This document shows positions 1,804-55,678 of a stretch of 64,000 nucleotides of DNA, in pieces; positions within the stretch are counted from its first letter, which is position 1; each line of letters starts with the position of its first letter. The notes beneath the pieces are model-generated. The model did not search any database and was not told the DNA's origin. It saw only the letters and a list, made by a program, of their open reading frames with translations. Both the position numbers and the translations under genes were made by a program. Source of the stretch: Bimuria novae-zelandiae CBS 107.79 (taxonomy: Eukaryota > Ascomycota > Dothideomycetes > Pleosporales > Didymosphaeriaceae); contig ML976696.1 of NCBI GenBank assembly GCA_010015655.1, positions 1 to 64,000 on the forward strand. Reading direction: 5' to 3'.

Positions 1804-1865
1804 TTTGGTTTTACCGGTTAAATTGAGTTGGAGGGAGCAAATTGGGGCGTGCGCTGTACTTAAGA

Positions 1866-1917
1866 GGTGACCTAACCACCCGATAAGTAACCCGACCACT
1901 CGATTTGTAAGCCAACC
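1866..1917. repeat. Orphan doubled motif resembling a pogo-type TIR end
   Basis: Two imperfect copies of CCACYCGAT start at 1876 and 1896, 20 bp apart. The layout matches the right ends of the pogo-like elements in this window, which carry a doubled CACTCGC-type motif. No partner end or transposase is visible to the left, so this is at best a transposon remnant lying just upstream of the first gene. The remaining 1926-1990 is unassigned. Confidence 0.25.
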
Positions 1918-1993
1918 AGCGAACAGGGGTCTGCACTAGCGCGTGTGGTGGGCCGAGGTCAAAGTGTGGTGGGGTTAACCGTATCCACCTTAA

Positions 1994-3516
1994 CTAGCAA
2001 GGAATAGGTGCAACAAGGGATATAGTCTAAGATATAGCTAATAATCTACTTGCTAAGCGCAGTAGATAGCCTATTAGTAAGCACTAGATAGACAGGCTTA
2101 AGACGCGTACGCTAGAAATTAAGCTTTAAAGGAGCTATTTATATAATTGTTAGCAAGCCCTAAACGAAGATCTACGTATTATAACGCCCTAGTTTAAGCT
2201 AGTTACTAATACTAAGGCTAAGTATAGTATCGCTAATAATAACACGTACAACTTCGATAAGACAGGCTTTATAATAGGGGTAATACAGGGTTAGATAGTC
2301 TTTACAGGCTCTGAGAAGCGAAGCAACCTAAAGAAGATTTAACCTAGTAACTATAGGTAGGTTACTAATATCTAGGGTATTAGCGCTAAAGGCTAGGCTC
2401 TACTACCCTTTCTTATTTCCTTAGCAAGGTTCTAATTACGTCCTAGTTCTATAATCTACCCTAAGACTAGGTTATTAAAGTTAGTCCTAATAGCTAGACG
2501 TTAAATAAGCTTAGCCTTGCCTAGCTAAGGCACTTTAATACCTATACTAAGGCGCGTAGTTTAGGTGCACACTAGCTACTAATTATAAATAGCCACGAGA
2601 GCCACTGCTCACACGAATTCTATAAATACTATAAGGAATAGAAGATTATTATTTTCTATATGCCTTTACACTTATCACACCTCTTGTAGCCACTTAATGT
2701 GGGTTATTTTTCGCCTTTAAAGCAGGCGTATAGCAATAAGATTAGTAGCTTAGCACAGTACGGCACTAAGTAAATTAAGAAGGAGGTCTTTCTACTAGCC
2801 TTTAAAGTAGCTTTTAAAAAAGTAATAATAAAGGCGAATATCTGCGCAGGCTTTAAAGGCGCTAGATTAGTCCTATATAACCTAAAGGCGGTGTTATTAA
2901 GACTTAATGTGGTTCTTCGTACGCCAACTCCACCTAACGTAGAGAATACCTTATAAGAATTAAAAACATTAAGCAACCTCCGCGAGATAGAGGCTTAGTT
3001 AACGCTAGTTTATAAGCGTGTATAAAAGTATAAAGATTTACTAGTTTCTCCGCTTCTTAGAGCTGTTAAGTAGCTTAATAAAGGTGTTACATTAATAGGG
3101 CACGAAATAGTGTTAATATAATAAGAAATAGCAGGGCTTTGTAAGGTAGTAGAGATAGTAATAGAGGTAAAAAGTTAAAAGAGGAAGTATATTCAGGCAG
3201 CTAAAACACTTATAGTAAGAGAGGTAGTTAATTTAATAGCTAAAAAGGATAGTAGTGGGCAAAAGGAGGGTGAAGAGTCTACAAAGAGGGTGCGTGGGCA
3301 GAGGCGCTGCGGATATTGCGGTAAAGCTGGTCACAACGCTCGCACCTGCGCAGTAGAAATTGTAAATACATCTAATAGCAATAAGTCTAAATAGTATTTC
3401 TATGTTCTGCGAATTATAGTAAATTGTAGTGGTGTTGTAGGAGGCGCTTCGCAATAGACTAACTTTTAAAAAGTGGCCCGCTCGGTGGGGTTGGCCCGCT
3501 CGGTGGTGAACCACGT
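1994..3516 (+). mobile_element. Pogo/Fot1-like DNA transposon D1, 5'-truncated and RIP-mutated
   Basis: This is an inverted second copy of element D2 (51964-53810). The shared sequence starts near 1994, so about 330 bp of the left end is missing. The right TIR (about 3472-3516) contains GCCCGCTCGGTGG twice and ends next to TA. The transposase frame on the plus strand is full of TAG/TAA. Its C-terminus still reads CGYCGKAGHNARTC (about 3310-3350), a CX2CX4HX4C zinc knuckle of the kind seen at the end of fungal DDE-1 transposases. The element is inactive. Confidence 0.8.
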
Positions 3517-19625: not shown

Positions 19626-21514
19626 CTCGCCCCACACGCCAACCGGAGGTTGGCCCTGCGCAGCCCAACGTAACTTCGTAGCCTAACGTAACTTTATATA
19701 GAGAATTAAAATTAATCTAGTCTTTTGACAGCGTAGACTTCAATTATATAGGCTAATATACAGTGGAGTTAGTGTAGCAAGTAGGGCAGGATCTACAGTC
19801 ATCTCTCTAAGAGATAGGACCTATTAGGGCTAATTTTATAGGCTCTGCAAGTGGGCGTCCTTATACGTTTTTATAGCCTTTTAAGTAACTTTTTAAGCCT
19901 TAAGCTCTATACGTTAATTAATTACTTATCGCGCTGCTTTTACGGTCACTACGCTACCTTTTTATACTAGCCTTTTATCTTTAATCTACCTTTTTTAGCG
20001 TTGTTAAGCTGCTGCGGTAATATCTATAAGGTCGCGCTAGGCCAGCGCGAGACTATCGATTAGCAATTGCGAGCTTTCTAGGAATTTTGTAAGCCTCCTA
20101 CTTGATATATTGCTTCTCTCTAGGGCGCGCGACATTTTTTGATGCTGCCGTTGATATGCTGTAGGTGTATTGGCGATAGGGCTTGAATTAACAGCGGATA
20201 GAACTGATGGGGATGGCGTCTGGATAGGTGCTGGCAGCTTTATGTAAACAAGCTCTGGATTAAATGGAAAGATCCTAGCTTTCTCTTAGGCGCTTAGGAT
20301 TGTGCTGCGCTTGAATGTATCTATCCTGATCCTATGGATCGCATGTAGAAATTCGACTTTGTTAAAGTCTGTGTAGCTAGTTCGAGTGGCTATCTCTATA
20401 GCCTTTTTATAATTCTGCTTTAATAGCTAAAAACAGATAACGTCTAGAGGCTGCAGATAATGTAATAAATATAGTAATAGTAAGAAGGGGAGTATCTTAT
20501 AATTATCGCAGAACTATATAAACTTAATAGTAAGGTGGCTACTAAATCTATTAAATATAAGTAATTACTATACGCCTTTCTAGCGCGCGCGCGTTTGTAT
20601 TTTAAAGAACTTTAGCTATTTTATTAAGATAGAGTTATTAGCGTATCCTAATATTAATATAGCGATTATATAGCTATTAGGCAGCGCCGTATTTGTATAC
20701 TAGTAATAAAAGTAATTAACAGCCTGTATAACAAGCATAGGTTCGAGCACCTCTCTATTGCTAGAAATTAATTTAATACTCGTGATATAATTGCGCGACG
20801 TCTTTAACGCAGAGATATAGGGATAATTAAACTTTATAGTAATAATCTATTAATTACTACTAACGCCTATGCGGAAGCCAGTTTTGTCTATATTATAGGT
20901 GTCTAATAGGGTGACGCCGTAGGTGTATATCACCTTTTTAAGCTTAATAAAATAATAGCTGTAAGCTTTAAACGTCGCTATTGCTGTATAATTAATATGC
21001 TACGACTTCTGCTTTATGCGGCGATAGTCTGGATTTCTTAATAGCTATCGCGATGGCTAGTCCTTACTAAGTAAGGGAGCTTTGCCATCGGGGTGCGCGC
21101 GATTAAGGATATATTAAGTAGCACCTTTTAACTATAGTATAAAGTATAGCATGCTAATAGTGTTATAGCGACGTATATATAACTTTAGCGCTTCATCCTG
21201 GGTCTCTAAGAGTCGTAGATTCGTGCCGCTGCGGTTATAGTGGCTGATCCGGCCTCCAGCGCGCGCTTAAAGTCGCGAAACAGGCACGCTCTATTCGCGT
21301 GCTGCAGCTACAAAATTAGGTATTTCTAAGTTAGAAAAACTAGAGAAATAATTAAAGATACGCTACTTAATTTTATAGCTCTCGCCATAATATTTAGGCA
21401 TGGTTGTGGGTTGTTTATTAAGAAAATAGAAAAATCCGCGATAAAAAGTTACGTTAGGCTGCGAAGTTACGTTGGGCTGCGCAGGGCCAACCTCCGGTTG
21501 GCGTGTGGGGCGAG
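19626..21514 (-). mobile_element. Pogo-like DNA transposon nested in A
   Basis: The roughly 70-bp TIRs begin CTCGCCCCACACGCCAACCG and carry CCYAACGTAACTT twice, 18 bp apart; the arms differ at about one position. TA flanks both ends (19624-19625, 21515-21516). Minus-strand sequence about 20480-20150 reads like a DDE-1 transposase C-terminus (LQPLDV, then KKAIEIATRTSYTDFNKVEF), with stops. Orientation is from this segment. Confidence 0.85.
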
Positions 21515-24124: not shown

Positions 24125-24266
24125 CTATATATACTTTTAATACTAATATCCTATTAATAATCGTAAGCTATTAATAAATCCTTACCTATATTACTAACGC
24201 TCTTGCCTAAGAACCAACCCTAGACCCCTTTTAGACTAGCTATTCGTAGGGGCTTGACATCCGTTA
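24125..24266. other. AT-rich spacer, no gene seen
   Basis: Short RIP-mutated stretch between the solo LTR and the long inverted repeat of unit 1. Confidence 0.4.
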
Positions 24267-24946
24267 GGCTAGTTAGTAGCTTAAAATAAAGCCATTTTAG
24301 AAAAGGCGTATTACTTAAGTAGCTACTAGAATTACACGTATAAAGTAGAAGGCTAATAAGGCTACTAAGTAATGCCTTAAGTAATGTCCATCCCCGCGTA
24401 GCGAGACGCACTATATAACGAGACAAATAAGGGATACTTTAACTTATAGTAACTAGAAAGCTTATATGCACGACAAATATTATTATAATTTTATAAAAAT
24501 AATTTACTATAGCTAATTTTAAATATTTTTAATTTACTCTTTCTTAAAAATTATATTTATATTATTATCTTTAAGCCTGATTTATATAGTGCCTTTTTTA
24601 TAGCCTAATAGACCTCCCTCCTTATAGCGCTAATATTAAGCCTTTATTATTTTAAATTTTTATAGAATAGCTTTACCTAAGCTTTAGAACCTCTATCTAA
24701 TACTAAAAAGTTATTATTAGCCCTATACGTGCTGCAAGGCGTAATTTTATATAAAACTACTACGTTAATTAGTACCTTTAGTAGAAGTAAGTTACTAATT
24801 TTTACTAATTAAGGGTAATCCCGCACCTCTCGCGTTATATATTTATAGGTATTTTACTATAAGGTATATAGCTATATAGCTCGCACAAGCGATTAGAATA
24901 TTACTATATTTAATATAAGGATTAAGAGTAGCGTTAGTACTTAAAG
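24267..24946. repeat. Unit 1 left inverted arm
   Basis: The reverse complement of this arm is recognisable at 28914-29477 plus 35114-35228, with many C/T and G/A differences. For example, the CGCGTAGCGAGACGC block at 24395 recurs inverted near 29450. Short ORFs here are not genes. Confidence 0.8.
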
Positions 24947-25638
24947 GCTGACAGACCCTACGCCGCCAAGGCCGACGAGAGCCGCACGTGCACCGGTTCC
25001 TGTGCACTTGTCGCAGATCCATGCGAAGATCTCAGGGCGATTGACGAAATCAGAGTCCGGGGCGAACGGGATGGTGGAGAAGAGCTCGCGTTTGCGGGCG
25101 GATCCGTCTGCGAGCCAGTGTTACGTGGCTCACATCTTCTGCGCATGAGGAGGATGGACGTGAGGAGTCGGAGGACCATGAGCGAGGCTGTTGGACGACG
25201 TGAGTCGCGCTGGGCAGTCGTTCAGCCGCAGCTGAACCAGTCCGGCCCACCCACCCACCTCACAGTCCATTTGGTCCTGCAATAACATTCCCCCAGTGTA
25301 ATAAGAACCCAACGTGCTGGATTCACTCCAGGCGTCTCCTCGCCGTGTCTCGGTGTAGCCCACTTATCGACCACAGGGGCTTGTGTTCCACATTGTCGGC
25401 GCGCTTCCATCTGTCTGCGGCCATTGCTTGGCCTGTCGAACGACTCCACAATCGAACCTGCTGCGGCACGCACGCACCGAAGCAGACCACAGTATTCGCT
25501 ACCCGACGACAGCCGTCCTCGTGTTTGCATCCGCCCAATCCATACCCCGACATCCATCGAGCCTGCAAGATTGGACATAGGCCACTTCGATTTACCTCTC
25601 GGTTCTGCCGACACTCTGACCACCCACGAGACTCAGCG
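24947..25638. other. Upstream region of the HET gene
   Basis: Normal composition. Several overlapping minus-strand ORFs (24958-25820) have no family resemblance and look like GC-driven chance frames. The promoter and 5' UTR of the HET gene are presumably here. Confidence 0.4.
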
Positions 25639-28467
25639 ATGCGCCTCATCAACGTAGAGACACTGAAATTGGAAGAGTTCTTTGATGATAAAATCCCACC
25701 GTACGCAATACTATCGCATACCTGGGGAGACCCCGGAGAAGAGGTGACTTTCAGCGATATTGAGGCGGAAATTATTGAGAAACCCGGGAATGGGACGATG
25801 AAGTTGAAGGGATGCTGCAATCAAGCCAAAGATGATAATCTGGGATACGCTTGGATTGATACCTGTTGCATTAACAAGGATAGCTCTCGGGAACTTGACG
25901 AGGCTATCAACTCTATGTTTCAATGGTATAGGAAAGCTTCCATTTGCTACGCGTATCTCTCAGATGTTCCCCCTGGAGACAATTCTTGGGATTCGGGTTC
26001 CAAGTTCTTCGCCAGTCGTTGGTTCCTACGAGGATGGACCTTACAAGAGCTTCTGGCCCCTAAGAAGCTATGTTTCTACGACCAAACATGGAAGTCCATA
26101 GGAAGAAAAGAGGACATATCTAACGAGATCGAGACGATCACGGGTATTCCTCAGCAGTTCCTACTCGGATGGGAGGATTTACGCAAGGCGAGCGTAGCGC
26201 AACGCATGTCCTGGGACGCAAAACGAAAAACCACGAGAAAGGAAGACATTGCGTATTGCCTCCTTGGAATTTTCGATGTGGCGATGTCCATGATCTATGG
26301 TGAAGGTGACCGAGCCTTGAGTCGGCTGCAGCAGGAGATAATGAAGAATACTGGAGACCATTCTATCTTGGCATGGGGTCTTAACGCTGCGGAATCCATA
26401 CCAAGCAAATCCACGGATGTCGTCTCCGCGGGGATTCTGGCTACTGCTCCAGCAGACTTCGCGAACTGTGGTCCCATTGTTTTACGGAAACAAGATGCTA
26501 CCCCCGTCGATACATTCGACATTTCTGGCGGCCATCTCCGGGTGCATATCTCTCTGCATACACCCTCGGCTGGCGAGATATACGGCCTGCTAAATTGCGG
26601 TCCGGAGCACAATACAGAACAAGTTGTGGGAATCCCCCTCCGCAAGGTTGTATCAGGCGATCTATCCGACAAGTACCTCAGACCGCAAGGACATTATCCA
26701 GTCTTACTTTCCAAGACTGCGTCAACTGGTTTAACCAAGGCCATTCACATCCGGATGGAGCGCCAAAACAGGGCGCAGGAGGCAACGAGTCGACGGTACT
26801 GGCTCCGTATAAATGGACATCAGAAAATCAACCTGAAGCTCAGCGGCGTTCATCCTCCAGTGTCCTGGGAGGATGGACGCGCACTGATTGCCAAGGCAAA
26901 CGACTCGGACGAAATTATTACACGACAATATTTGACTCGGTTCTACACTCCAGGCGAAGGATCTCGAGACTTTGTCGTAAAGCTCGAGTTGGAAATACAG
27001 GGATTGCAGGCACAAGCTCGATGCCACATCATGACATTATCCAGAGATACCACTTTAGAGGCTTTGTCGCAGAAACTCATTTACATGAGGCCAGAAGCAT
27101 TTGGAAAGCAGACTGCCAGCAATGACAGCGTCAATGTGAAGGTGATTGCGGGAGAAGAACAGGTTGCGCAGGAGCCAGTGTTCATTGTCAGGCTAGCTGA
27201 GGCATCCAGCTCACCGGAGACCACTGTGGATGCGACCCTTGAGCTGCAACAAGTAGATCTGAAGTTCGAATTCTTGAGGATTTTGCAAGAAGAAGACCAA
27301 GTCCGTCTGGAGACCGAACGATTGGACCAGTAGAGAGACGAGAAGATGGCTGCTTTGGATTCGATGAGGGACCGTCTAGCAGTAGTAGAAGAAAACCTGA
27401 GGAAGCTGAGTGAGGAGAAAAAATTACTGATCGACGGATTGGAGAAAGTGCCTCAACAAGTCGATCAACTCAAAAAGAGACACTATGAGGCCATGCAACG
27501 ACAACACAAGTTGTCAGAACGAGGATCAGAGATACAACGGCGTCTGGATGAGTCCGATATAAAACAGGGTCCCGAGAACTGGCTTGAGAGGGTCATCAAG
27601 ACGCGACTCGATGCAGGCCAAATTGGTCGCAGTTTGAAGGATGTAGGAGACTCAGACTCTAACCGCCCGCAGCTGTCGAGGATGGTGGAGACTAGGCATG
27701 ATATCGACGGCCAGACACCGCTGTCATGGGCTGCAGCCTACGGGCACGAGGCGGTCGCGAAGCTACTACTCGAGAAAGGCGCCGATGTTGAGGCAAAGAC
27801 CAACGATGACTGGACGCCGCTACGAGGCGCCGCAACCAGCGGGCACGAGGCGGTGGTTAAGCTGCTGCTTGAGAGAGGCGCCGACGTCGAGGCGAAGGAC
27901 AACAATGGCTGGACGCCGCTACGAGGCGCCGCATACAACGGGCACGAGGCGGTGGTTCAGCTGCTACTCGGGAGAGGCGCCGACATCGAGGCGAAGGAGA
28001 ACAATGGCTGGACGCCGCTACGAGTGGCTGCAGCTAACGAGCACGAGGCGGTGGTTAAGCTGCTACTCGAGAGAGGCGCTGGCCTGCAGTCAGACGCAAA
28101 TCACCATCTACTGGCCGTGAATAAGGCTCCGCATCCGCAGACGACATCCTGGAGATCAGTTTTACGCCGACGATGAACTACGATGGGGCAAATAGCCCGA
28201 GGAATAAGACGCGAACTCCATTCGCAGGTCCTCCTACCCCAGGGGGACGCGATGTACTTGCGAGCACTGCAAGGCTATGAGAAAGCACTTAGCCAAGAAG
28301 TAGTGAATATGTATATCCCTGTTCCCCCACTTAATACAGCTCAGAATATGACCGTTCTCTTCCAGCACACTAGCTGTACACAGGAGGCGAAGGATTTATA
28401 CGAACAGGCTCTCTTTGGTGTTGAAGCAGTTTTCAGGCGTACAAACAACAGGTATCGCAGAATTTGA
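25639..28467 (+). pseudogene. HET-coiled coil-ankyrin-TPR protein, broken by two in-frame stops
   Basis: One reading frame from ATG 25639 runs through TAG 27331-27333 and TGA 28174-28176 to 28467. Residues 1-564: HET domain (PF06985 type) with PYAILSHTWG at 21-30, YAWIDTCCINKDSS at 70-83 and RGWTLQELLAPKKL at 131-144, then a HET-associated region. After the TAG comes a coiled coil (LAVVEENLRKLSEEKKLL), then four 33-residue ankyrin repeats starting at 27715, 27814, 27913 and 28012, exactly 99 nt apart. After the TGA is a TPR-like segment (LQGYEKAL, EAKDLYEQALFGVEAVF). The TAG directly follows a CAG codon, so CAG-to-TAG is the likely lesion. HET proteins trigger incompatibility cell death. Whether a shorter HET-only protein (564 aa) or a separate ankyrin protein from ATG 27346 is made is unknown. 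Confidence 0.85.
27703..28098 (+). repeat. Four near-identical 99-bp ankyrin-coding repeats
   Basis: Blocks such as GGCTGGACGCCGCTACGAG and GGGCACGAGGCGGTGGTT recur at 99-bp spacing. The nucleotide similarity is higher than protein conservation needs, suggesting recent duplication or exchange among units. Confidence 0.85.
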
Positions 28468-28470
28468 CCG

Positions 28471-28913
28471 TACGATAGCTGTATTACATAAAGCATACAG
28501 AGCCTTTCTACCTTTGTATGCGCTTGCGACAACGGCGTTTCGCTAGTAACGTTTAGTTGAACCCATATGCCGAAGCGCCGCCTGCATTCTACGTTATCCT
28601 ATACCTCTCTTATCTTATTATATCCCCTCTAACGAGCTAAGACTAGATCTTAGCTACTGCTTAGTTTAAGAATCGGCGCTAGTAGACTCGAGAAGTATAA
28701 GGACGTGGTGTGCTTAACTAAATCTTTTATTTAGTAATTAGCGGAGAGGACAACGGCGGGTTTTATAGCTTAGGAGCGACATAAATAGTATATCTCTATA
28801 TTATAAAAGTAATTACGTATTATTGTGCGTTAGACCGCATCCTAAAGTTATATAATAGCTATATTAAGTAGTAGAGATACTAAGACGTATTAGCTAACTA
28901 AATAAGTACTATT
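28471..28913. other. 3' flank of the HET-ankyrin gene, grading into RIP-mutated DNA
   Basis: Normal composition to about 28620, then increasingly TA-rich up to the inverted arm. No gene is recognised. Confidence 0.4.
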
Positions 28914-29477
28914 CTTTAAGTACTAACGCTGCTCCTAATCCTTATATTATATATAGCAATATTCTAAGCGCTTACGCGAGCTACATAGCTATATACCTTA
29001 TAATAAAATATTTATAAATATATAACGCGAGAGGTGCGGAGTTATTTTTAATTAGTAAAAATTAGTATCTTACTTTTACTAAAAGTACTAATTAATATAA
29101 TAGTCTTATATAAAATTACGCCCTATAGCGCGCATAGAACTAATAATAACTTTTTAGTATTAGATAAAGGTTTTAAAACTTAGGTAAAGCTATTCTATAA
29201 AAATTTAGAATAATAAAGGCTTAATATTAGCGCTATAGGGAGGGAAGTCTATTAGACTATAAAAAAAGGCGCTGTATAAATTAAGCGTAAAAATAATAAT
29301 ATAAACGTAATTTTTAAAAAAGAGTAAATTAAAGGTATTTAAAATTAGCTATATTAAATTATATTTATAAAATTATAATAATATTTATTATACGTATAAG
29401 CTTTCTAGTTACTATAAGTTAAAGTACCTTTTATTTGTCTCGTTATATAGTGCGTCTCGCTACGCGGGGATAGACAT
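28914..29477. repeat. Unit 1 right inverted arm, inner piece
   Basis: Inverted copy of 24384-24946. It ends abruptly where unit 2 begins (TA 29478-29479); the remaining 115 bp of the arm resume at 35114. Confidence 0.8.
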
Positions 29478-29479
29478 TA

Positions 29480-29752
29480 ATAAGCTTATAAAATATAAAA
29501 TTAACTTTAAAAATATATTAAAATATTTAAATTAAGTAATAAGAATATTTTAAAGCTTTTTAATAGAGCTATTAAGATAAAATAGCCTTAGCGTAAAGCT
29601 ATAAATATTAATAAAATTTTATTTATTATATCTACCTTAAAGTTGCGTAGTAGCTAAATAATTAAAATACAAAGTAAATATTAATAATTTAAGTAGTTAA
29701 TAATTACTTAAAAGACCTTAACTTTAGAAAATCTCGTAATAATATTAATTAT
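29480..29752. repeat. Unit 2 left inverted end
   Basis: Aligns along its whole length with the reverse complement of 34834-35111; for example AGTAAATATTAATAATTTAA occurs in both. Confidence 0.85.
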
Positions 29753-30592
29753 AGGTGGCTTCGTAGCCTTATGTTGCTGGCCGAGCGATCATGTTGGGGT
29801 GGCGCGTTCAGTGACGCGGCGCGCCAACTGCCAAGCTACGGTACTGACTCAACAGACTCTCGCCCGCTCACTCTCCGCTCAACAGACTCCTCACTCCACA
29901 CTCTCTTTTTTGCAGATAGCAATACAGCTTGTTGTCCTCATATGCCTGCCTGTCCAACAGTTATTACAGCGTTCCTCCTTGTTTTTTCGAGATTCTTCGA
30001 TTATGGCTACACCCTTTTGCTACTGCTCTGGGGTCTATGGTAGCTTTCGCCCTTTGGTGGGCAGAGCTCGCTATGACTGTTTCGAGAAGTAGCTATTACA
30101 AGCGGCGATTCTGGTACAGTGGGTTATAGCGATGAGCCAGATGCGGTAGTGACGTGAGAAGTGTAGGTTTACAAGTCCTACGTTGGAAGGATTCATTTGT
30201 TTCTTCTCTGCTCTGGGACATTGTTTCTACTTGGAGTCGCGAACGTTGTTGTTTCCGCTGAGCTTGAAATGTGATAACGTGGAAGTGGGAATTATCAACG
30301 CGGAGTGAAGAGCGGGATGTCTTGCTTTGAAGTCCGCCGATGAATGCAATGGGAACACGACAAAATATATATGTAGGATCCCGGTGTACGAGTAGCTTGG
30401 AAGCTTAGTGTGGTGGCGCGTGTTGTATTTTCACTATGAGCAGCGGTCGCGATCCGACTTTCATTCTGGCCACAGCCTTGCACCAAGCTTCGAATTGTTT
30501 CACTAGCTCATGTTATCTACCTTTATATAACGCCCATCGCTTTCCCAAAAACAGCTCAATCACGCAGCTGCATTGAGCTCACTGCCTCAACC
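29753..30592. other. Left interior of unit 2, no gene assigned
   Basis: Normal composition. Short frames at 29771-30129 do not resemble a known family. The part just before 30593 is the presumed promoter of the F-box-like gene. Confidence 0.4.
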
Positions 30593-31688
30593 ATGGCTAA
30601 CCTCCTAGGTCTACCGGACGAACTTCTCCTGAAAATCGCCCATTATCTCTATCAAGACGCAGGATCACGGCAGCAAGCCCTAGTAAACCTTGCACTAGTA
30701 AGTTCCCAGCGCCCCTTAGCTCTAAACACCCACTAACACACCTAGTCATCCCGTGAGCTCACTGGCATTGCCACGAAGCTATTCTACCAGGCCCCTGCAG
30801 TTACCGAGCTGCAAATCTTGAATTTCCAGCGCAGCGTACTCACTCTCAAGGATGTTTCGAAGAATATCACGAAGCTGGACTTGAATCTGGAGAAACCGGG
30901 ACTGTACAAGGCTTCTGAGTTCCGCGCGACTGCCGAACTGCACGGAGCTTGTGCTCCACGTCAACACCCGTGTGTTCTTTACCAATCTCCCGCAGTACAA
31001 GCATCTGGACACGTTCCTGGAAACGTTCCCGAAGCTCAAGGCGCTTTCTATACAAATCACGAATGTGGAGTGCAATGACGTAGTTCATCGGGAAAACCAC
31101 AACGACGACTACCTCCTGGACGCCAACTTCTGTGCGCGCGTCGATAGTGGTTGGATCCCTCTTGACCGGCGCGGCGTTTTCGCCCCGGAATTACTCGTTT
31201 CCAAATTGCAGGTCACCACTCGCACACTCGAGTCCCTCTAGAACAAACTCTACCAGAAGCCCAGCGTAGTGAACTCCTCTCCCTACTATTTCAACTGGCT
31301 AGAATACTTCTTCGACTCGTCTCAAACCATCTCTTTCCGCGGCTTTGAGAAGCTGAAAGAGTTGGTGATCTCAGGCGTGTTCCTGTCCTGCAGTTCTCCT
31401 AGGATGCCGGGTTTTTCAGAAAACTTGCTCCCGGCTGGGATTCAGCGGGCGGTCTTTCTGCCACCGGGGGCCGGTGCTTGGTATTGGTTGCGTCCGATAC
31501 TGGAAGTCAAGGGGCACTGTTACCCGGACTTGCATGAGATGGAACTGGGGATCGACTCGAAATCGCAGCAGAGCCAGCGAGAGTACTATTGCTTCGTGTT
31601 CGGATGCACGGAGGCGGATTTGGATAGCGCGGGCGTCAAGCTTGTGTCCATCTCTGAGCCGGAGGGCGACCGGAAGTTGATTGGCTGA
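30593..31688 (+). pseudogene. F-box/LRR-like protein gene, frameshifted and with a nonsense codon
   Basis: Exon 1 (30593-30697) encodes MANLLGLPDELLLKIAHYLY, a typical F-box start (LPDELLLKI). A 48-nt intron (30698-30745; GTAAGT donor, CTAAC at 30733, TAG acceptor) follows. Exon 2 starts SSRELTGIATKLFY. Near 30910-30930 the plausible frame switches by one base: before it LNLEKPGLYKASEFRA, after it RLPNCTELVLHVNTRVFF. An in-frame TAG at 31239-31241 follows, after which the same frame continues with FRGFEKLKELVISGVF to TGA 31686-31688. F-box proteins are SCF ubiquitin-ligase adaptors; leucine-rich stretches would bind substrate. The two lesions suggest a pseudogene; a sequencing slip could explain the frameshift. 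Confidence 0.72.
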
Positions 31689-31936
31689 GTGAAAAGCGTG
31701 GCCCACTCCTCGTGTCTATCAAGATAAGTTTCGAGAGAATGATTTGAGGGAATAAGTCCAGGAAATGGTTTGGAGTTTCGGTTGGTTCGTGTGTGGTCAC
31801 ACACTCGGGAGAGTCTGGTGTGGGAAGGGTTGATTTACCCACGACCCTGGTTTGAAATGATGCAGTACTCACGAAGTCAAGCTTACCGACTGAAGACCTT
31901 GTCATATGATACAATGTAGCCGTACTATGCAGACTC
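31689..31936. other. Spacer between convergent genes
   Basis: Shared 3' flank of the F-box-like gene (plus) and the HET gene (minus). No gene seen. Confidence 0.4.
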
Positions 31937-34636
31937 TTATATGATCTTCACAATGTACACCTCACCGTCCCACAAACTCGCGAATTCCTCATCATCGAGG
32001 CCAAGTTCGCTTCGAAGAGCCAGCCGCTCCTTCCCTTTGGCACAACACGCGCGTGTGACTTTAGTGATCTCCTCAAAGCCCTGTTGTGAATACTGTCCTC
32101 CTATACGCCATGCTCCCTTTCTCCTGTAGACACCATCTTCGACCCGCTCAAGGAAGAGACCTCGTAGTTCCGGGTAGTCATAAGGATAACTCCTCAAGCC
32201 TTCAGCAACTGGTATCAGCAGCGATTTGCCCCCGATCGATTCCAGATCAAAATCTGGATATGCCGTGAATTCCTTCATTACGCCTAAGCCACGGATATCG
32301 ACCGGAAACTGTTGATGATGGAGCCACTTGGCAGTGTCAACAGTGACTCGAAATAAGGTCTGGACGCGGATGCGGATGTAGCCACTCGTGACTTCGCCGA
32401 ATTGATCCTCGGGGTATGCAGTAACGGCTTCTGCAATTGAGACTTAGTCGCGCCTCTAACGACAGATTTGAAGGGATTCCCACCTAGTACACTGGCTGGA
32501 TATAGCCGTGAGGCATGAATAGCATCGATTGCTGCTCTGTCGCCATCTAGAGGCCTAGCGTATCCCTTCGGGAATTTGACTCCGCCACCCACGGAAGCCC
32601 AGGACCAAGATGGCGCTCGATACGCTGCCTGCGAATCTCTCGATGACAATGGCTCGCTAACATCCTTGTGCCATATGAGTAATCGTATCAGGTCCTTTAC
32701 CCACATCCCGGCAACATATTCAGTGCCGTACACAGAAGCGAGGATCCTGGCGAGACCGGAAATGGCGACCAATCTGTCCTTGTCAAATGTTAATTTCCTT
32801 TTACTGTAATCTTCGACGATGTCGGACCACAGTTGGACATTGTAGGTGTGTGATAGAGGTTCATCTTCCTCTAAGGTCCAAACGAAATTTTCGGGCGACA
32901 AGCCCATAATGCCTTCATCGAACATATCAGGGAGACCTTCATAAGCGGTGCATGTACGGCATTCCCAAGCGATCTGCTCGCGGCCGAAATATAGGGTTCG
33001 CGGAGGAAGTAGGCGCTCTTGTAGCGTCCAAGCTCGGGACGCAAGCAAGCTTTCTTCAATGACTGCTCTTAGTGTTAATCACTGTTGTGTTACCGCAGGC
33101 TGAGTAATACAATGGCCAACTTTCAGCTGTACGCGAGGGCGTGTATTATCAGGGTAAGTTGTAGAAAGTGTTGTCTCGAAGTCTAGCGATAGGAGAAGTG
33201 TTTGATCTGTTACCGTGCCGTGGAGTGACTCACCTCTTCTTGTCCCAGGGGTGATGCAGTTCCAAAGGTACACCTTGTCGGGAATGTCTTCGTCGTCTGC
33301 GAACGAGGACATTTTGGTCTTGGGTGTGGTTCCTGTTGGAGGAAAAGATACTTTCCAGACATTGGGAACGTCTGGTCTGTCCTCGAAGAAGCACCCAGTG
33401 TGCCCGTCGGGAGAATCAGATGCGGCAAGATTCAAGCTAGAATTTGAGTATATATGACTCATCTTGACAGCTTCGTGCTGCCAGTCTTCCCAGTCTTCTT
33501 GTACGATGCACAAACTGTCAATCTTCACCGCTTTAGAACTAACGCTTCTTTTTCTAAAAGTTGGGAACTGAGACCTACCCACAGATAAGACAAGCCTAAG
33601 TTACGTGCTGCCACCACCGCGTCCTGGAAAGTTTTCGAGAGGCTTTCGTATTGTATACCGCGCAGGAGAGTATGAAGATTGGCTTGAGTCAGCTTCAGGA
33701 AAGGCTTTGTACCCCAACAATGAGATAAGGTTGCGTATTCTGCATCCGCTGACAGCGAGCTAGATAGCACCAGCCGAAGTTCGCTGTTGTTTCCACCGAC
33801 TTGTATTAATCGCGTTGGTAGCATCTTGTCCAGATATGTTGTGCAGCAGTACCCGTGTGAATCCCGGCATGTTCGAAGCCATTCATTGGCTATATCCCAT
33901 ACCGGCTGGCAGTCTGTAGACGAATGTATGGGTCCGACGGCGGTGTTACTAGTTTGCCCTGTATCTGGTATCAACAACGAAAAAAGCTATGCGATACCAC
34001 AGTGAACGCACGAGCAACCTATGACTATTTTCTCATAGTAGAGATAAATCATATGCCCAGATGCGACTTACCAGAAATGAACATCCGAAACGCTGGCCTC
34101 AACACCCTCTCTCCAGCATCAAACTCCAACTCCACATAGTGACAAGGCACTTCACGCAAGTGTTCGTAAACCCTAACATGGCTGCGCGCAGTGCATCGTA
34201 TGGCTGAACGGAGAGCCCGCACACTCCCTTCATCATAGCGTCCAAGCTCGCGCAACAGCATCTTACAAAGCGGGCACCAACAGTATTCCAAATCTCTGAA
34301 GCTGTGATGGGCATCTCTGCGTTCGTGATGACGTATGTTGTAACCTCCATTCGGCGGTCCCCACGTTGCGAAAATCATCTGGCATTCTAGGCACAGTCCT
34401 TTGAAATGACGCGCGCGTACTTCGGCTGGAGTCGGCCACTCGTTCGCATATTCCGAAGACTGGGTAATGCGTCCGGGAGATGGAGTTTCTTTCTTTCCTC
34501 TGGGTTTTGCGTTCTCGCGAGAAAGCAGAGATTCAGGCGGATGGGTGCGGGGTGTGGCTGGGTCGGGCGCTTCGAGCTGGAGGAAGGCACCCATCGTGTA
34601 TTTTGAACCCTTGCTAAGGCTGTCGTCCTTTCCCAT
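31937..34636 (-). pseudogene. HET-domain protein gene, with at least one premature stop
   Basis: ATG at 34636 (minus). Exon 1 encodes an N-terminal region with CPLCKMLLRELGRY and ends FRMFIS at a GTAAGT donor (34071). The next part carries the HET domain (PF06985 type): YATLSHCWGT, then GLSYLW joined across a 56-nt intron (33523-33578) to IDSLCIVQEDWEDW, giving the hallmark W-IDSLCI-Q. TGA at 33079-33081 interrupts the frame; the same frame resumes with SLLASRAWTLQERLLPPRTL, another HET hallmark. A short intron (about 41 nt, near 32450-32491) or a frameshift leads to EAVTAYPEDQFGEV and the C-terminus ending at TAA 31937. The exon 1/exon 2 join does not stay in frame with the acceptor beside the T6 run near 33981, so a second lesion is possible. 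It is convergent with the F-box-like gene. Confidence 0.8.
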
Positions 34637-34833
34637 CTTCACTCATGGCGCAACTTGTGAATATGATGACGGGAAGCCTGCTGAGTTGTGTAACGATGTT
34701 TTAGGCAGGATCTGTAGACGCAGCTGGACAGGTACCAGATTGGGATTCGGCCCCCACACATACCGTGCCTTAGCAGTCAGTGCACCACCCCACCGAAATC
34801 GCTCAACTAGGAATATGAGGCTGTGGATTCGCG
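34637..34833. promoter_or_regulatory. Presumed promoter region of the HET gene in unit 2
   Basis: Normal-composition DNA between the HET start codon and the unit 2 right end. No specific site is identified. Confidence 0.3.
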
Positions 34834-35111
34834 TACAATTAATATTATTATAAGTTTTTTAAGAGTTAAGGTCTTTAACGCCTATAGATAATTACTAACT
34901 ACTTAAATTATTAATATTTACTTAGTATTTTACTAATTTAGCTACTACGTAATAAGGGCGTTAATAAAGTAAATATAGTTTTATTAACGCGTATAGGTGC
35001 TAGCGCAGGCTATTTTTTATAAATCAGATAGTAGACTTTACAGTCTTTTTATTACCTTTTTTAGCTAATTTAATATAATCATAAGGTGATTAATTACTTT
35101 TATAAGCCTAT
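34834..35111. repeat. Unit 2 right inverted end
   Basis: Inverted counterpart of 29480-29752, RIP-mutated. The outer tip read inward is ATAGGCTTATAAAA. Confidence 0.85.
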
Positions 35112-35113
35112 TA

Positions 35114-35228
35114 ATTAAAGTATTACTTAGTAGCTTTATTAGCTTATTACTTTGCGCGCGTATTTCTAGTAGTTACTTAAATAATACGCTTCTTTTAAAG
35201 TAGCCTTATTTTAAGCTACCTACTAGCT
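35114..35228. repeat. Unit 1 right inverted arm, outer piece
   Basis: Inverted copy of 24267-24380; for example AGCTTAAAATA near 24279 recurs inverted as TATTTTAAGCT at 35207-35217. It completes the arm split by unit 2. Confidence 0.75.
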
Positions 35229-35230
35229 TA

Positions 35231-35547
35231 ATAGGCCTCTACTTACCTACTTTTTTAAAGCTATACTTATTACTCATTAATATTTTTTTTTGTATTAATA
35301 ATCACGTGCCTGCTATATACTATAACGTAATTAAAAATTAGCTTTATTACAATACTTATTTAGCTAATTCAGATATAAAAATTTATCTTACTTTAAGCGT
35401 TTCTTTTACGTTATTAAAGCCACTTATAGGCCTTTATTTTTATACTTTAAAAGTTACTTTTATATAGAAATAAAGTATATAGTTTAACCTAACTTTTTAG
35501 CCCTATTATTACCTTTTATATTAATAATAGCTTTTAGAAGCCTAACG
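35231..35547. other. RIP-mutated DNA, no gene seen
   Basis: TA-rich, no open frame. It lies between unit 1 and pogo element B. Confidence 0.4.
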
Positions 35548-49963: not shown

Positions 49964-51815
49964 CATGCATAGCGAGTGGCCGGGCATAGCGAGTGGCCGA
50001 AAATGCCAAGACCCCATTAAAATCTACACTCTACACAATAGTACAGAACGCACACAAATAGTAATAAGAAATTGTAGTAGGCCAATCTACTCTAAATCTA
50101 CTTCTACTTCTTTTTTACACGTGCGCGAATTATGCCCAGCCTCGCCGTAGCGTCTACAGCGCTATTAAGTTAATTCGCTTCTATTAGCGCGCACCCTCTT
50201 CTTCGCCTTTTTTTTATTACTACGCGCTGTAAAGTCCTTTAGGGTAGCTAGTTACTAGCTATTAGTAGTTATAAGGACCCCTTCCTACTATAGTTACTTT
50301 CTCTTATGCAATTTACGTCGTATAGCAGCCTTATTAGTGGCTTAAAGCTTAGCGTTACGCTTTATTATTAATACTAGAGAATGCGCTATTAGCTTAGCGC
50401 CTTTTACGAGCTTTTTAACCGCCTTAACTATACTTGTTAGGGAGCTATCTAGGTGCCTCTAAATCCTCTCCTTCACTAGCGTCGATTGTGACCCTAATTC
50501 TAGGGTGTTGCTAGGCGTCTGCGACTGCCACGTACTATCACGTATAGTAGAAGGCGAAGGCGTACGCAGACAAACGTTAAGCTTTAATATTACTACTTCT
50601 AGGTTAAGGGGAATAAGGCTAGCGCCTTAAAAGCCTCCTTAGATATTACTTTAAGTTATTATAGCCTTAAAAGTAGTAATAAAATAAGGTAAGAACTTAA
50701 TTTTAGTAATATGCGTAATATAGTTGCGCATTAGATCCTTGGCTTAGCGCCTATATGCCTTCTTTAACGGCGAGAAACACCCCACATCAAGTGGCTACAG
50801 GAGGTGCGACGAATATAGAGGTATATAGAGAGTGATAATCTTCCTATCCTTGTAGTATTGCTAGAATTCGAGCAAGTTATAGCTCTCGTAGCTATTAATA
50901 ATAAGTAACTAATAGCTACTAATAGTACGCTCTTTTGTATGCGCGTTAAAGTGCTTTAGCTACTATAGACTAAGCTTGTTATTTATCTAGCCGTTCTTAG
51001 AGACTGCGAGAACCTAGTCGCGAGGTAGATCCTTCTCTTAGTACCAGGCAGAGAGGTGGTGCTTGCCCTAAAAGATAAGGAAGGATGGGATCGCCCACCC
51101 TATCGCGTTAATGCTATAAATAGCTATTATCTACTTTTAATTGCCCTGCTACACGCTCTTTAGCTTACCTTAACGCTTAAAGCCTGTGATAACTACTCCT
51201 GTTAATATTATGCCTATTATAAAGCTAGTCTTGTTAAAGTTGTAGGTATCTTTATCCAGGATACCATACTTGGCTTTGGTATTCTCTACAAGCCAGAACC
51301 AGCCCTATACAACCTCAGGATCCTTACAGAGGGCTCTCTTATAGTCGTACTTTTAATTAAACTTAACTTAGAGCTCTAGCTAGCGCTTAACAAAGTAGTA
51401 AGGCTACCTTTAACTAACTAGCTTATTATAGCGTGCAGCTAATAAAGAATTAGCTATATCTTTTATAGTAGCAAGCTAGGGCGGAAACCCTCGCACATTT
51501 AGATTAAGTATATACTACACAATTGCCTACTCCTCTTTTATAGTAAGTCTTATTAAGTTAGGTGTATAGTCGCGTCGAAAATTAGTTCTAGCGCGTCTCT
51601 ATTATAGTGTTCTTTTAGCAACGCTATAGACTACTATAGTACGTAAAATTAAGAGTAGCGCGTCTCCTTTAATAGCTTAAAGCGCAAGCTATAATCTAGC
51701 CTCTTTTAATTTAGGTAGTTTATTACGTTGTTAAGACATCGCGTTGTAGTAGAACGTTTTAATGGGGTCTTGGCATTTTCGGCCACTCGCTATGCCCGGC
51801 CACTCGCTATGCATA
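49964..51815 (-). mobile_element. Fot1/pogo-like DNA transposon C, RIP-mutated
   Basis: TIRs start YATGCATAGCGAGTGG and carry ATAGCGAGTGGCCG twice, 17 bp apart, then AAAATGCCAAGACCCC. TA flanks both ends (49962-49963, 51816-51817). 1852 bp. The reverse-oriented transposase is degenerate. The short ORF at 49965-50150 is TIR sequence. Confidence 0.88.
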
Positions 51816-51963
51816 TACGTTACTTTTAAGGTACTAGCCTATAGCTTCTTTATATGCTTCGTGTATTTAGTATTTATTATTAAAGCACTTTTACTATCCT
51901 AATTCCTTATAGTGTCGTGACTATACGTTGGGAAAATATTTATAGTACTTTATTATTAGTTTA

Positions 51964-53810
51964 ACGTGGTTTACCACCAAGCGGGCCAACCCCACCGAGC
52001 GGGCCACTTTTTAAAAGTCAGTCTATTGCGAAGCGCCTCCTACAACACCACTATAATTTACTATAATTCGCAGAACATAGAAATACTATTCAGACTTATT
52101 ACTATTAGATATATCTATAATTTCTACTGCGCAGGTGCGAGCGTTGTGGCCAGCTTTGCTATAACGTCCGCAGCGCCTCTGCCCACACACCCTCTTTGTA
52201 GACTCTTCACCCTCCTTTTGCCCACTACTATCCTTTTTAGCTATTAAATCGACTACCTCTCTTACTATAAGTGTCTTAGCTGCCTAAATATACTTCCTTT
52301 TTTAACTTTTTACTTTTATTACTATCTTTACTACCTTACAAAGCCCTGCTATTTCTTATTATATTAATACTATTTCGTGCCCTATTAATGCAACACCTTT
52401 ATTAAGCTGCTTAATAGCTCTAAGAAGCGGAGAAACTAGTAAATCTTTATACTTTTATACACGCTTATAAACTAGCGTTAACTAAGCCTCTATCTCGCGG
52501 AGGTTACTTAGTGTTTTTAATTCCTATAGGGTGTCCTTTACGTTAGGTGGAGTTAGCGTACAAAGAACTATATTAAGTCTTAATAACACCGCCTCTAGGT
52601 CGTATAGGACTAATCTAGCGCCTCTAAAGACTACGCAGATATTCGCCTTTATTATTACTTTCTTAAAAGCTATTTTAAAGGCTAGTAGAAAAGCTTCCTT
52701 CTTAATTTACTTAGTGCTATACTGTGCCAAGCTACTAATCTTATTACTATACGCCCGCTTTAAAGGCGAAAAACAACCCACATTAAGTGGCTATAAGAGG
52801 TGTGATAAGTGTGGAGGCATATAGAGAATAATAATCTTCTATTCCTTATAGTATTTATAGAATTCGTGTGAGTAGTGGCTCTCGTGGCTATCTATAATTA
52901 GTAGCTAGTGTGTACCTAAACTACGCGCCTTAGTATAGGTATTAAAGTGCCTTAGCTAGGCAAGGCTAAGCTTGTTTAACGTCTAGCTATTAGGACTAAC
53001 TTTAATAACCTAGTCTTAGGGTAGATTATAGAACTAGGACGTGATTAGAACCTTATTAGGGAAGATAAAAAAGGGTAGTAGAGCCTAGCCTTTAGCGCTA
53101 ACACCCTAAATATTAGTAACCTACCTATAGTTACTAGGTTAAATCTTCTTTAGGTTACTTCGCTTCTTAGAGCCTGTAAAGACTATCTAACCCTGTATTA
53201 CCCTTATTATAAAGCCTGTCTCGTCGAAGTTATACGTGTCGTTATTAGTAATACCGTACTTAGCCTTAGTATTAGCAACTAGCTCGAACTAGGGCGTTAT
53301 AATACGTAAATCTTTATTTAGGGCTCGCTAATAATTATATAGATAGCTCTTTTAAAGCTTAATTTCTAGCGTACGCGTCTTAAGCCTGTCTATCTAGTGC
53401 TTATTAATAGGCTATCTACTACGCTTAGCAAGTAGATTATTAGCTATATCTTAGACTATATCCCTTATTACACCTATTCCTCGCTAGTGAAGCTTAAGTA
53501 TACGTTAGACTAGAGCCTCCTCCTCTAGCTTAGTTAACTTCGTTAAGTTAGGCTCGCGATCGCGTTGAGAGAGGGCTCTTTAGCGTTATTATTATACTAT
53601 TATTTAAGGCACGCTAAAGGCTATAATAACGCGTCTTTTACTTTTATTATAATTTTTAATTATAGCTTAGATAGTAAGCTATAGTGCGCTTTTAGTATAA
53701 AGTTATTACGCGTTATGTTGTGATGGCATTATAGTATAAGCTAGAGGTGGGCTGCATTTAGCAAAGTTGGCCCGCTTAGTGGGGTTGGCCCGCTCGGTGG
53801 TGAACCACGT
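51964..53810 (-). mobile_element. Pogo/Fot1-like DNA transposon D2, full-length but RIP-mutated
   Basis: TIRs start ACGTGGTTYACCACC and carry ACCGAGCGGGCC-type motifs twice, 18 bp apart. TA flanks both ends (51962-51963, 53811-53812). 1847 bp. The minus-strand transposase keeps its C-terminal zinc knuckle region (about 52120-52190) but is full of stops. D1 at 1994-3516 is an inverted copy. Confidence 0.88.
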
Positions 53811-53884
53811 TATAGTTATTAATAAACTTATAATGTTATGAGGCTCTCACACCTTGTTCCGATCCGGGTTAGGGCGATAAGGTA

Positions 53885-55678
53885 AGCTAGCGCATGGGGT
53901 TCCGAGACACCCGGGGATATGAGACACCGCGCAGAAATCCTCCACCCTTTAAAAAATCGCGATATCTCCACATCCACCCTACCAAAATGGCCAACCGTGA
54001 GGTAGCAATTCAAGCAGCTATTAGTGATCTTAATGCTGGCATTTTTCCTAGTCAACAAGCTGCTGCAAAGGCATATAACATCCCTATAGCCACGCTATCT
54101 AGGCGCGTACGCGGTTCACAAAACTGGCAAAACAGCCACGTATACTAGTAACAATTAACTCTATAACAAGAGGACTTCCTTATATAATAAATACTTAAAA
54201 AGGACGCGCGCGGGTTTCCTCCTTCTTACGCTTATATATAAGAAATAGTAAATTAAATCCTTAGGATAAATAGCGACCACGCGTTAGTAGGTAAATACTA
54301 GATATCTTACTTTATTAAACGTAACCTACGCGTTACCTTTATTATAAGTAAGAAGATTAAGGCTGCGAGAGCTAAGGGAGTAACTTAAAAAGTAATACGC
54401 GAGTTTCTTAAGCTCTATAAGTAGCTCCGCGTTAAGTTAGATATACGCAATGAGGATACGTGGAATATAGATAAGACTAGGAAGGCCCTAGGCGTATGTG
54501 CAAACACCAGAGTACTCGCAGGAAGCCAGAAAAAGAAGGCTTACTATCAGTCTCTAAAGAATCGCGAGTGGGCGTCGATAATCGAGTGCGTTTCTGTAAT
54601 AGGGAGAAAGCTGCGGCCAGCTATTATTTTTAAAGGCAAAAACCTGCAGAGCACCTGGTTTTTATTAATAATACCTAACTAGCTATACGCAACTTTAGAG
54701 AATAGCTAAATATTTAATATAATAAGGGCTAAGTGGCTGCAACGCGTATTTCTGCCAGATACTACGCCCTTAAAGGATCGCTGGCGGATGCTAATATTAG
54801 ATGGCCACGGTAGCCATGTTGACCTAGATTTCTTGTGGATCTGCAAGCAGAATAAAGTCAGGCTTCTATTTCTCCCTGCGCACTCCTCGCACGTTCTACA
54901 GCCACTAGATCTCTCTGTTTTCTCAGTAGTGAAACGATTCTATCGCCAGCAGATCCACGAGTTATCACACCTAGATAATGCTGCGCCAGTTAAAAAGGAA
55001 CGTTTTATTATTGCCTACAACGCTGCTAGAGAGGCTGCGATTACTAAGAGAGTAATCCACGCTAGATAGGCTATTGCAGGCATCTGCCTGTTAAATATTA
55101 AGCAGGTAGTTAACTTATCTTAAGTCGCTTAAAGGCCTGTTACCCCCCCTTACTAGGATTAGGCTTATCTCGCCAAGAGCTCTCTCTACACTTCCTATAG
55201 CCCTCGGGATCTGTTTATAGCTTAAAGGCAGCTCCACAGCGCTAAGAAATTAAGCCGTAAGGTTTACTAACTATTTAAGAAAGCTAGCAAGGCAATTATA
55301 ATAGCTAATATACACTTAGTAGCGCTAGAAGCAGAAAACAAAAAATTATAAAGTTAACTTAAGGCCCTTAAGCGTCCGTAACCACGAAAGAAAGTTTGTA
55401 TAGACCTAAATTAACGCTTTGCTAGCATAGATTAAATTATAATAGCAAAGCAGGCATCTGCTCTCCTAGAGCAACAAAACAGTAGTACTTCTGCAGAAAA
55501 GGACGCAGAAAAAGCTGCAGCAGAAATAGCAGCTAAAACTCTGCAATCTATGTGTAGCGAGTGGCAATTGTAATTACGCTGAATGAATTATCGCGATTTT
55601 TTGAAGGGTGGAGGATTTCTGCGCGGTGTCTCATATCCCCGGGTGTCTCGGAACCCCATGCGCTAGCTTATCGTGGTG
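53885..55678 (+). mobile_element. Pogo-like DNA transposon E
   Basis: The 79-bp TIRs (AGCTAGCGCATGGGGTTCCG start) differ at one position and contain GAGACACC twice, 17 bp apart. TA flanks both ends (53883-53884, 55679-55680). 1794 bp. It is less mutated than A to D. Confidence 0.92.
53988..55571 (+). pseudogene. Element E transposase (HTH plus DDE-1), with stops
   Basis: ATG 53988 (MANREVAIQAAISDLNAG) begins a psq-type HTH (QQAAAKAYNIPIATLSRR). Several TAA/TAG follow. Open from 54788 to 55069: LILDGHGSHVDLDF contains a catalytic Asp of the DDE domain, and LPAHSSHVLQPLDLSVF is the hallmark of pogo transposases. It ends around LQSMCSEWQL. It is probably inactive, although only a handful of stops separate it from an open frame. 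Confidence 0.85.

Follow-up and report, generated by a model that had tools for sequence, protein, structure and literature searches.

TA-flanked DNA transposons with HET and NLR cargo in Bimuria novae-zelandiae, and a candidate pogo-type transposase

One open question is how fungi assemble their large, fast-changing sets of NOD-like receptor (NLR) and het genes. It is raised in concrete form by the soil fungus Bimuria novae-zelandiae CBS 107.79 (genome 77.4 Mb, 191 contigs), in which a gene for a HET domain and ankyrin repeats lies between long inverted arms at 24384-29477 of the window, the stretch of 64,000 bases analysed here (contig 41, C41, bases 1-64000). Was this gene brought to its place as the cargo of a mobile element, and does the element belong to a family that carries such genes elsewhere? 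All genomic comparisons were made within this one strain, and C-numbers denote its contigs. The element, assigned below to a family called B, and the older repeat C into which it is set consist of the following parts.

24384..29477, + strand: inserted element of family B, 5,094 bp, recognised by inverted ends, empty site and motif family
24384..24946, + strand: left inverted arm, 563 bp, from self-comparison
28914..29477, - strand: right inverted arm, 564 bp, from self-comparison
25639..28173, + strand: HET-ankyrin cargo gene BU23DRAFT_590811, with the HET open reading frame (ORF) at 25639-27330, then TAG, then an open stretch with ankyrin repeats
24264..24383, + strand: repeat C, left copy, outer piece, the insertion target including its TA
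29480..29841, + strand: repeat C, left copy, inner piece, with the end ...CTACGG, then TA

The element has TA on both sides (24382-24383 and 29478-29479), and its arms are 89.4% alike over 566 bp, the segments 24594-24946/28914-29266 and 24382-24599/29262-29479 each being 90% complementary in self-comparison. Together with 28463-28913, the right arm makes up a 1-kb end region common to other members (C9, C64, C23 and others). The guanine-cytosine content is 0.274 in the left and 0.252 in the right arm versus 0.533 in the cargo (24947-28462), the TpA/ApT ratio is 1.56 and 1.54 versus 0.64, and 53 of the 59 mismatches between the arms are transitions. The TpA/ApT shift is of the kind produced by repeat-induced point mutation (RIP), which, judged by composition, has acted on the arms. 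A first-pass annotation, made from the letters alone, had described real inverted arms mutated by RIP around a host-like interior, and this description stands.

Pfam recognised HET in the first ORF (57.5 bits) and Ank in the next open stretch (121 bits), which runs to 28173 and is separated from the HET ORF by an in-frame TAG at 27331-27333. This order, HET first and a repeat domain after it, is that of fungal HET/NLR genes. The BU23DRAFT_590811 gene model also falls within 24384-29477: ten exact blocks of at least 17 residues within 25639-28666 account for 719 of its 732 residues, the first 407 forming one block. Among own-genome relatives of the HET ORF, the one with the best score is 51% identical to it over 262 residues, and no recent parent gene was found by own-genome protein comparison. 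The HET and ankyrin ORFs are the only ones of at least 280 aa in the element, so that no captain-type gene is seen there; no genome search was aimed at DUF3435. Two features of the gene may be added: the model passes the in-frame TAG via intron-like gaps that preserve the reading frame (25639-28666), so that what is annotated as a protein is probably the model of a pseudogene, and at 27700-28079 a 182-nt match recurs in three overlapping copies at 99-nt spacing, 77-79% alike, corresponding to tandem ankyrin-coding repeats.

The mobility of the element was read from its empty site. When 24384-29477 is left out, the joined flanks (24264-24383 and 29480-29841) run continuously across the junction in 19/19 C loci checked, which represent 15 distinct places (four places were counted twice); the genome search for repeat C scored the best 40 of 345 candidates. 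As the joined flanks are continuous elsewhere, a TA of repeat C was the site at which 24384-29477 came in, and it is nearly certain that the element did so in one piece. Empty sites with a single TA were found for two further members as well. The C145 element (at 535-5010 of C145:59100-64300) has 1,266-bp ends that are 93% alike and is located inside a short copy of a sister family, known from copies of 364 and 369 bp; its joined flanks align gap-free with the 364-bp copy at C40, 99.3% identical over 436 bp. For C133, whose cargo is HET-NACHT-WD40 and which is set in a sister element, the joined flanks align with two other family members, C40 and C23, gap-free around one TA. In addition, C12 and C23 have their cargo in common, and the similarity between them breaks off no more than 4 bp from the element ends. 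The empty sites show the insertion of whole elements; neither the timing nor the enzyme follows from them.

Family B was delimited by its ends. A 30-bp end motif, with at most 3 mismatches, identified 65 ends in 52 loci genome-wide, with 0 matches for the reversed-motif control, and 13 of the 52 loci contain facing pairs within 60 kb. In self-comparison the inverted ends of the paired members measure between 42 bp and 1.4 kb, and the elements are mostly 4-15 kb long. No second element end was found opposite the ends at C64, C28, C10, C123 and C87 in the stretches fetched. The first-pass annotation had supposed a TA-flanked DNA element without a transposase of its own that carries a HET gene; other copies with the same termini, together with the empty sites, bear this out. 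Ten paired members longer than 1 kb were chosen by their ends alone (the window element, C9, C23, C12, C1, C40, C127, C34, C62 and C145), and six of the ten hold HET, NACHT or NB-ARC-type genes. Their contents, beyond those of the window element, include the following.

C40 member: HET and ANK ORFs
C23 member: NPHP3_N (NACHT-like) and ANK ORFs
C12 member: the same NPHP3_N ORF as in C23, 99% over 121 residues
C62 member: HET-NB-ARC-TPR
C9 member: a TPR gene whose product shares 39% identity with the C62 protein across 298 residues; Pfam without NB-ARC
C1 member: a TPR ORF; 2,355 N
C145 member: a phosphatidylserine decarboxylase ORF

Further members were fetched via the domain list, namely C133, C110, C18:824579, C100, C61, C11, C57 and C18:418723. 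Thus the family repeatedly carries NLR and incompatibility genes in this genome, in the forms HET-ANK, NACHT-ANK, HET-NACHT-WD40 and HET-NB-ARC-TPR.

The bias was quantified by comparing the two sides of the 65 ends. Within 4 kb, the body side holds 13 distinct HET/NACHT places, one of them the window's own gene, and the outer side holds 1; the expectation, from a cautiously set 500 gene places in the genome, is 1.7. The counts are 13 versus 2 within 6 kb and 17 versus 3 within 12 kb; HET gene counts are lower bounds, from the best 150 of 325 candidates scored. Both the 4-kb limit and the 50% identity cut used below were set after the lists had been seen. An earlier count by arm similarity (8/35 loci inside, C133 twice, versus 1 outside at 6 kb) was superseded by this motif-based one.

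A candidate enzyme is encoded at C18:418723-434041, where family-B ends enclose an open 575-aa ORF that starts 557 bp inside the left end. Pfam assigned DDE_1 to it at 108 bits, above the cut-off, and HTH_Tnp_Tc5 at 21.5 bits versus a cut-off of 22.2. A NACHT-like gene with a SesA/PigL_N-like stretch ahead of it lies 1 kb beyond the transposase, and no inverted repeat of a smaller element was found around the transposase beyond chance 10-bp seeds in the 5 kb read. The window and C18 ends agree at 36/60 positions, shuffles reaching at most 31 in 500, and on this comparison the two are related beyond shuffles. The association of transposase and NLR genes was tested after it had been observed: a NACHT or HET-E-type gene lies within 3 kb at 9/14 loci of close transposases (the C18 transposase or homologues of at least 50% identity) versus 1/58 distant pogo copies (Fisher 2e-7), both sets coming from the best 76 of 2522 candidates scored. 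The 14 include C18, where the link was first noticed; without it the figure is 8/13. Besides C18, the loci with such a neighbour are on C44, C15, C42, C72, C48, C45, C49 and C4.

Taken together, family B is likely a pogo-like family of cargo transposons that spreads fungal NLR and HET genes. The window element is a DNA transposon without a transposase of its own, marked by TA target duplications and the terminal motif common to the family, which entered the older, RIP-degraded repeat C as one piece with its HET-ankyrin gene. RIP would mutate the repeated arms and, judging from composition, largely spare the single-copy cargo. Movement would be by cut-and-paste through a pogo-type DDE_1 transposase from members such as C18:418723-434041, and recognition genes would thus be multiplied and re-sited. 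That a C18-type transposase moves family B in this way is favoured on balance, and less firmly than the family's role as a whole. For the autonomous copy with a DDE transposase that the first-pass annotation had suggested looking for there is now a candidate, but its tie to the window element is one that we infer. The reason for the cargo bias is likewise a matter of inference.

Several results weigh against this reading. The window element lacks a transposase of its own. The right end of the C18 element lies 13 kb beyond the transposase, only 5 kb of the interval having been read, and among the nine close transposase/NLR loci ends were read at C18 alone. Transposase and NLR gene have no constant orientation to each other at the nine loci (3 same-strand, 4 divergent, 2 convergent), and for some of them a landing close to an existing NLR gene is therefore a real alternative. 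No HET, NACHT or NB-ARC domain was found in the scanned ORFs of C1, C127, C34 and C145. Some carriers represent one cargo lineage (C12/C23, and C64/C110 for HET, C64 standing outside the 65 ends), and the independent events are therefore fewer than 13.

The mixed orientations are also what would be expected if the family is real and the pogo-type transposase is a separate element that prefers NLR neighbourhoods, with another Tc1/mariner-type enzyme moving family B. The Tc1-type ORFs in the C64 locus and at C18:824579 would be at hand for this role. Each was rejected as the family transposase: the protein of the C64 ORF recurs at C40:245 kb in a 98% copy, close to which no family-B end is listed, and the C18:824579 ORFs have their own 35-bp terminal inverted repeats (TIRs). 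The C1 pogo was set aside in the same way, with a span of 1.8 kb between its own 100-bp TIRs and at least 133 genome matches. The C18:418723 copy, in contrast, lies inside family-B ends, and in the sequence read no inverted repeat above a 10-bp seed flanks it. A separate pogo element is unlikely on this evidence, though it is the most serious competitor. A 438-aa ORF at C127 was also considered as a possible transposase and rejected, since its five relatives lack any Pfam domain.

It is improbable that the cargo bias merely reflects HET/NLR genes and transposons both piling up in gene-poor, repeat-rich DNA. Both are common here, and a HET gene does lie between repeats without being cargo in the interval to the right of the window element; such a pile-up is contradicted by the outer side of the same ends, which serves as control at all three distances. 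Slightly weaker still, and very improbable, is a composite in which two separate short inverted elements (miniature inverted-repeat transposable elements, MITEs) flank host genes and carry them along. The short sister-family copies of 364 and 369 bp show that such units occur, but a scan of eight elements that allowed 7 mismatches placed the motif at the two outer ends only, save one 7-mismatch match inside C145, so that the arms have no inner end. Moreover, the arms within an element are closer to each other than to other members' arms in 7/9 elements, with C41 and C9 about equal to each other.

The first-pass annotation had made a second TA-flanked element ('unit 2') of the DNA to the right, with F-box and HET genes as cargo, and had placed it inside the right arm of the HET-ankyrin element. 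The parts of this interval are given below.

34763..35541, - strand: repeat C, second copy, inverted, body outward to the right, outer limit approximate
29844..34760, no strand: 'unit 2' interior, DNA between two C copies, with no enclosing element ends
from 30593, + strand: F-box-like ORF region, below the Pfam cut-off
within 31940-34642, - strand: HET-domain ORFs in the 'unit 2' interior, two HET matches above the Pfam cut-off

By whole-genome search, the 680-bp left 'arm', taken as the uninterrupted one, consists of two repeats that match different families: bases 1-119 belong to the high-copy repeat C, and bases 116-680 to the element arm. The 119-bp piece and the 273-bp 'unit 2 arm' are contiguous in other C copies. 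The right arm is complete in the window element, and the additional 115 bp at 35114-35228 are the corresponding part of the second, inverted C copy. Aligned C copies agree as far as ...CTACGGTA, or a close variant of it, before they continue into different DNA at 15 places, in an alignment read by eye; in the window this end falls at 29841 in the left copy and at 34763 in the inverted one. The right-hand copy stays similar to other C copies outward to 35408-35544 in 4/4 copies compared, and the left copy diverges from the others at about 24260-24264. With C ending at 29841 and 34763 and both bodies running outward, the interval is not within element ends: it is DNA between two inverted C copies, and 29480 and 35111 lie inside C. 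HET domains are present in both intervals, as had been noted; the F-box gene is not cargo, and the order of nesting is reversed. The model of two cargo elements, despite arm sums of 564 + 115 versus 680 bp and inverted similarity at all the places it named, can practically be dismissed, being refuted by 19/19 C loci and by C bodies that run outward.

Family B resembles several known systems, which are compared here as far as the excerpts drawn on from the cited papers go. In its TA duplication and terminal inverted repeats it is similar to Fot1/pogo-type Tc1/mariner elements; DDE_1 and the sub-cut-off HTH_Tnp_Tc5 are seen in the C18 member and are absent from the window element. An ordinary pogo copy nested in C1 has 1.8 kb between 100-bp ends, whereas family B has NLR/HET cargo and often long ends. 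hAT elements make an 8-bp target duplication. The ORFs scanned in the window element and family members gave no hAT domain, and the duplication is TA, which does not fit a hAT assignment. Starships, which are likewise mobile in fungi, count HET, NACHT and ankyrin genes among their cargo (PMC9594970), and one NLR is described in a Gaeumannomyces Starship (PMC12134995). Those described there differ in having a DUF3435 tyrosine-recombinase captain and in being far larger (Horizon, 143 kb), whereas family B shows TA duplication, inverted ends, smaller size and a DDE_1 candidate enzyme. ToxhAT is, like family B, an inverted-repeat DNA transposon with NLR-class cargo: about 14 kb long, it carries a Patatin-TPR gene that its authors class with fungal NLRs (PMC6737239). 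According to the same excerpt it has a hAT-like transposase, 74-bp ends, a target duplication that was not identifiable and one cargo unit, whereas family B has TA duplications and many members with differing NLR/HET genes.

Pack-TYPE transposons of plants are also non-autonomous inverted-repeat elements carrying host coding DNA (PMC8903248); family B favours cargo of one functional class, in many cases an entire multidomain gene. The HET-NACHT-WD40 architecture of the C133 cargo is that of the het-d/het-e (HNWD) family of Podospora, in which RIP acts (PMC1805685). In the excerpt of that paper the genes are not presented as transposon cargo, and one pseudogene adjoins a transposon relic. The association of NLRs with transposons has been treated as an assembly problem (PMC12222747, from an excerpt). 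No published description of family B was found in titles and abstract openings among the papers listed from the open-licence literature, subscription journals lying mostly outside this scope.

Homologues of the C18 transposase occur in Bipolaris, Alternaria, Exserohilum, Curvularia, Pyrenophora, Pseudogymnoascus and Lachnellula. It can tentatively be proposed, with the chances a little short of even, that a pogo-type DDE lineage in several Pezizomycotina genera is dedicated to fungal immune and allorecognition genes. Fuller members would pair transposase and NLR and shorter derivatives would carry HET/NLR genes alone, providing a Starship-independent route for the expansion and spread of NLR and het genes in which RIP erodes the arms and spares the cargo. 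If true, a second, DDE-based route would exist besides Starships for the growth of these repertoires. A multi-copy DDE transposon family with NLR/HET cargo and clean empty sites would be a concrete mechanism, testable in any assembled fungal genome, and the family could also account for NLR presence/absence differences among strains.

Some minor observations concern individual loci. Stretches of N occur within several family members (C64:193876-195205, also the C1, C62, C100, C110 and C61 loci). At C64:189500-194999, positions 2825-3014 hold a second ankyrin-like stretch in the opposite orientation to the HET-ankyrin gene of C64; no left element end was found to separate the two. In C18:824200-831199, a nested element at 1286-3022 with 35-bp inverted ends contains ORFs read by us as Tc1-like (no Pfam match); it is located inside a HET-bearing family member, and a similar ORF is present in C34. 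In the window itself, 50315-55108, 20202-20960 and 2504-2893 show protein-level likeness to pogo/DDE_1 transposases at 25-54% identity, mostly in degraded form.

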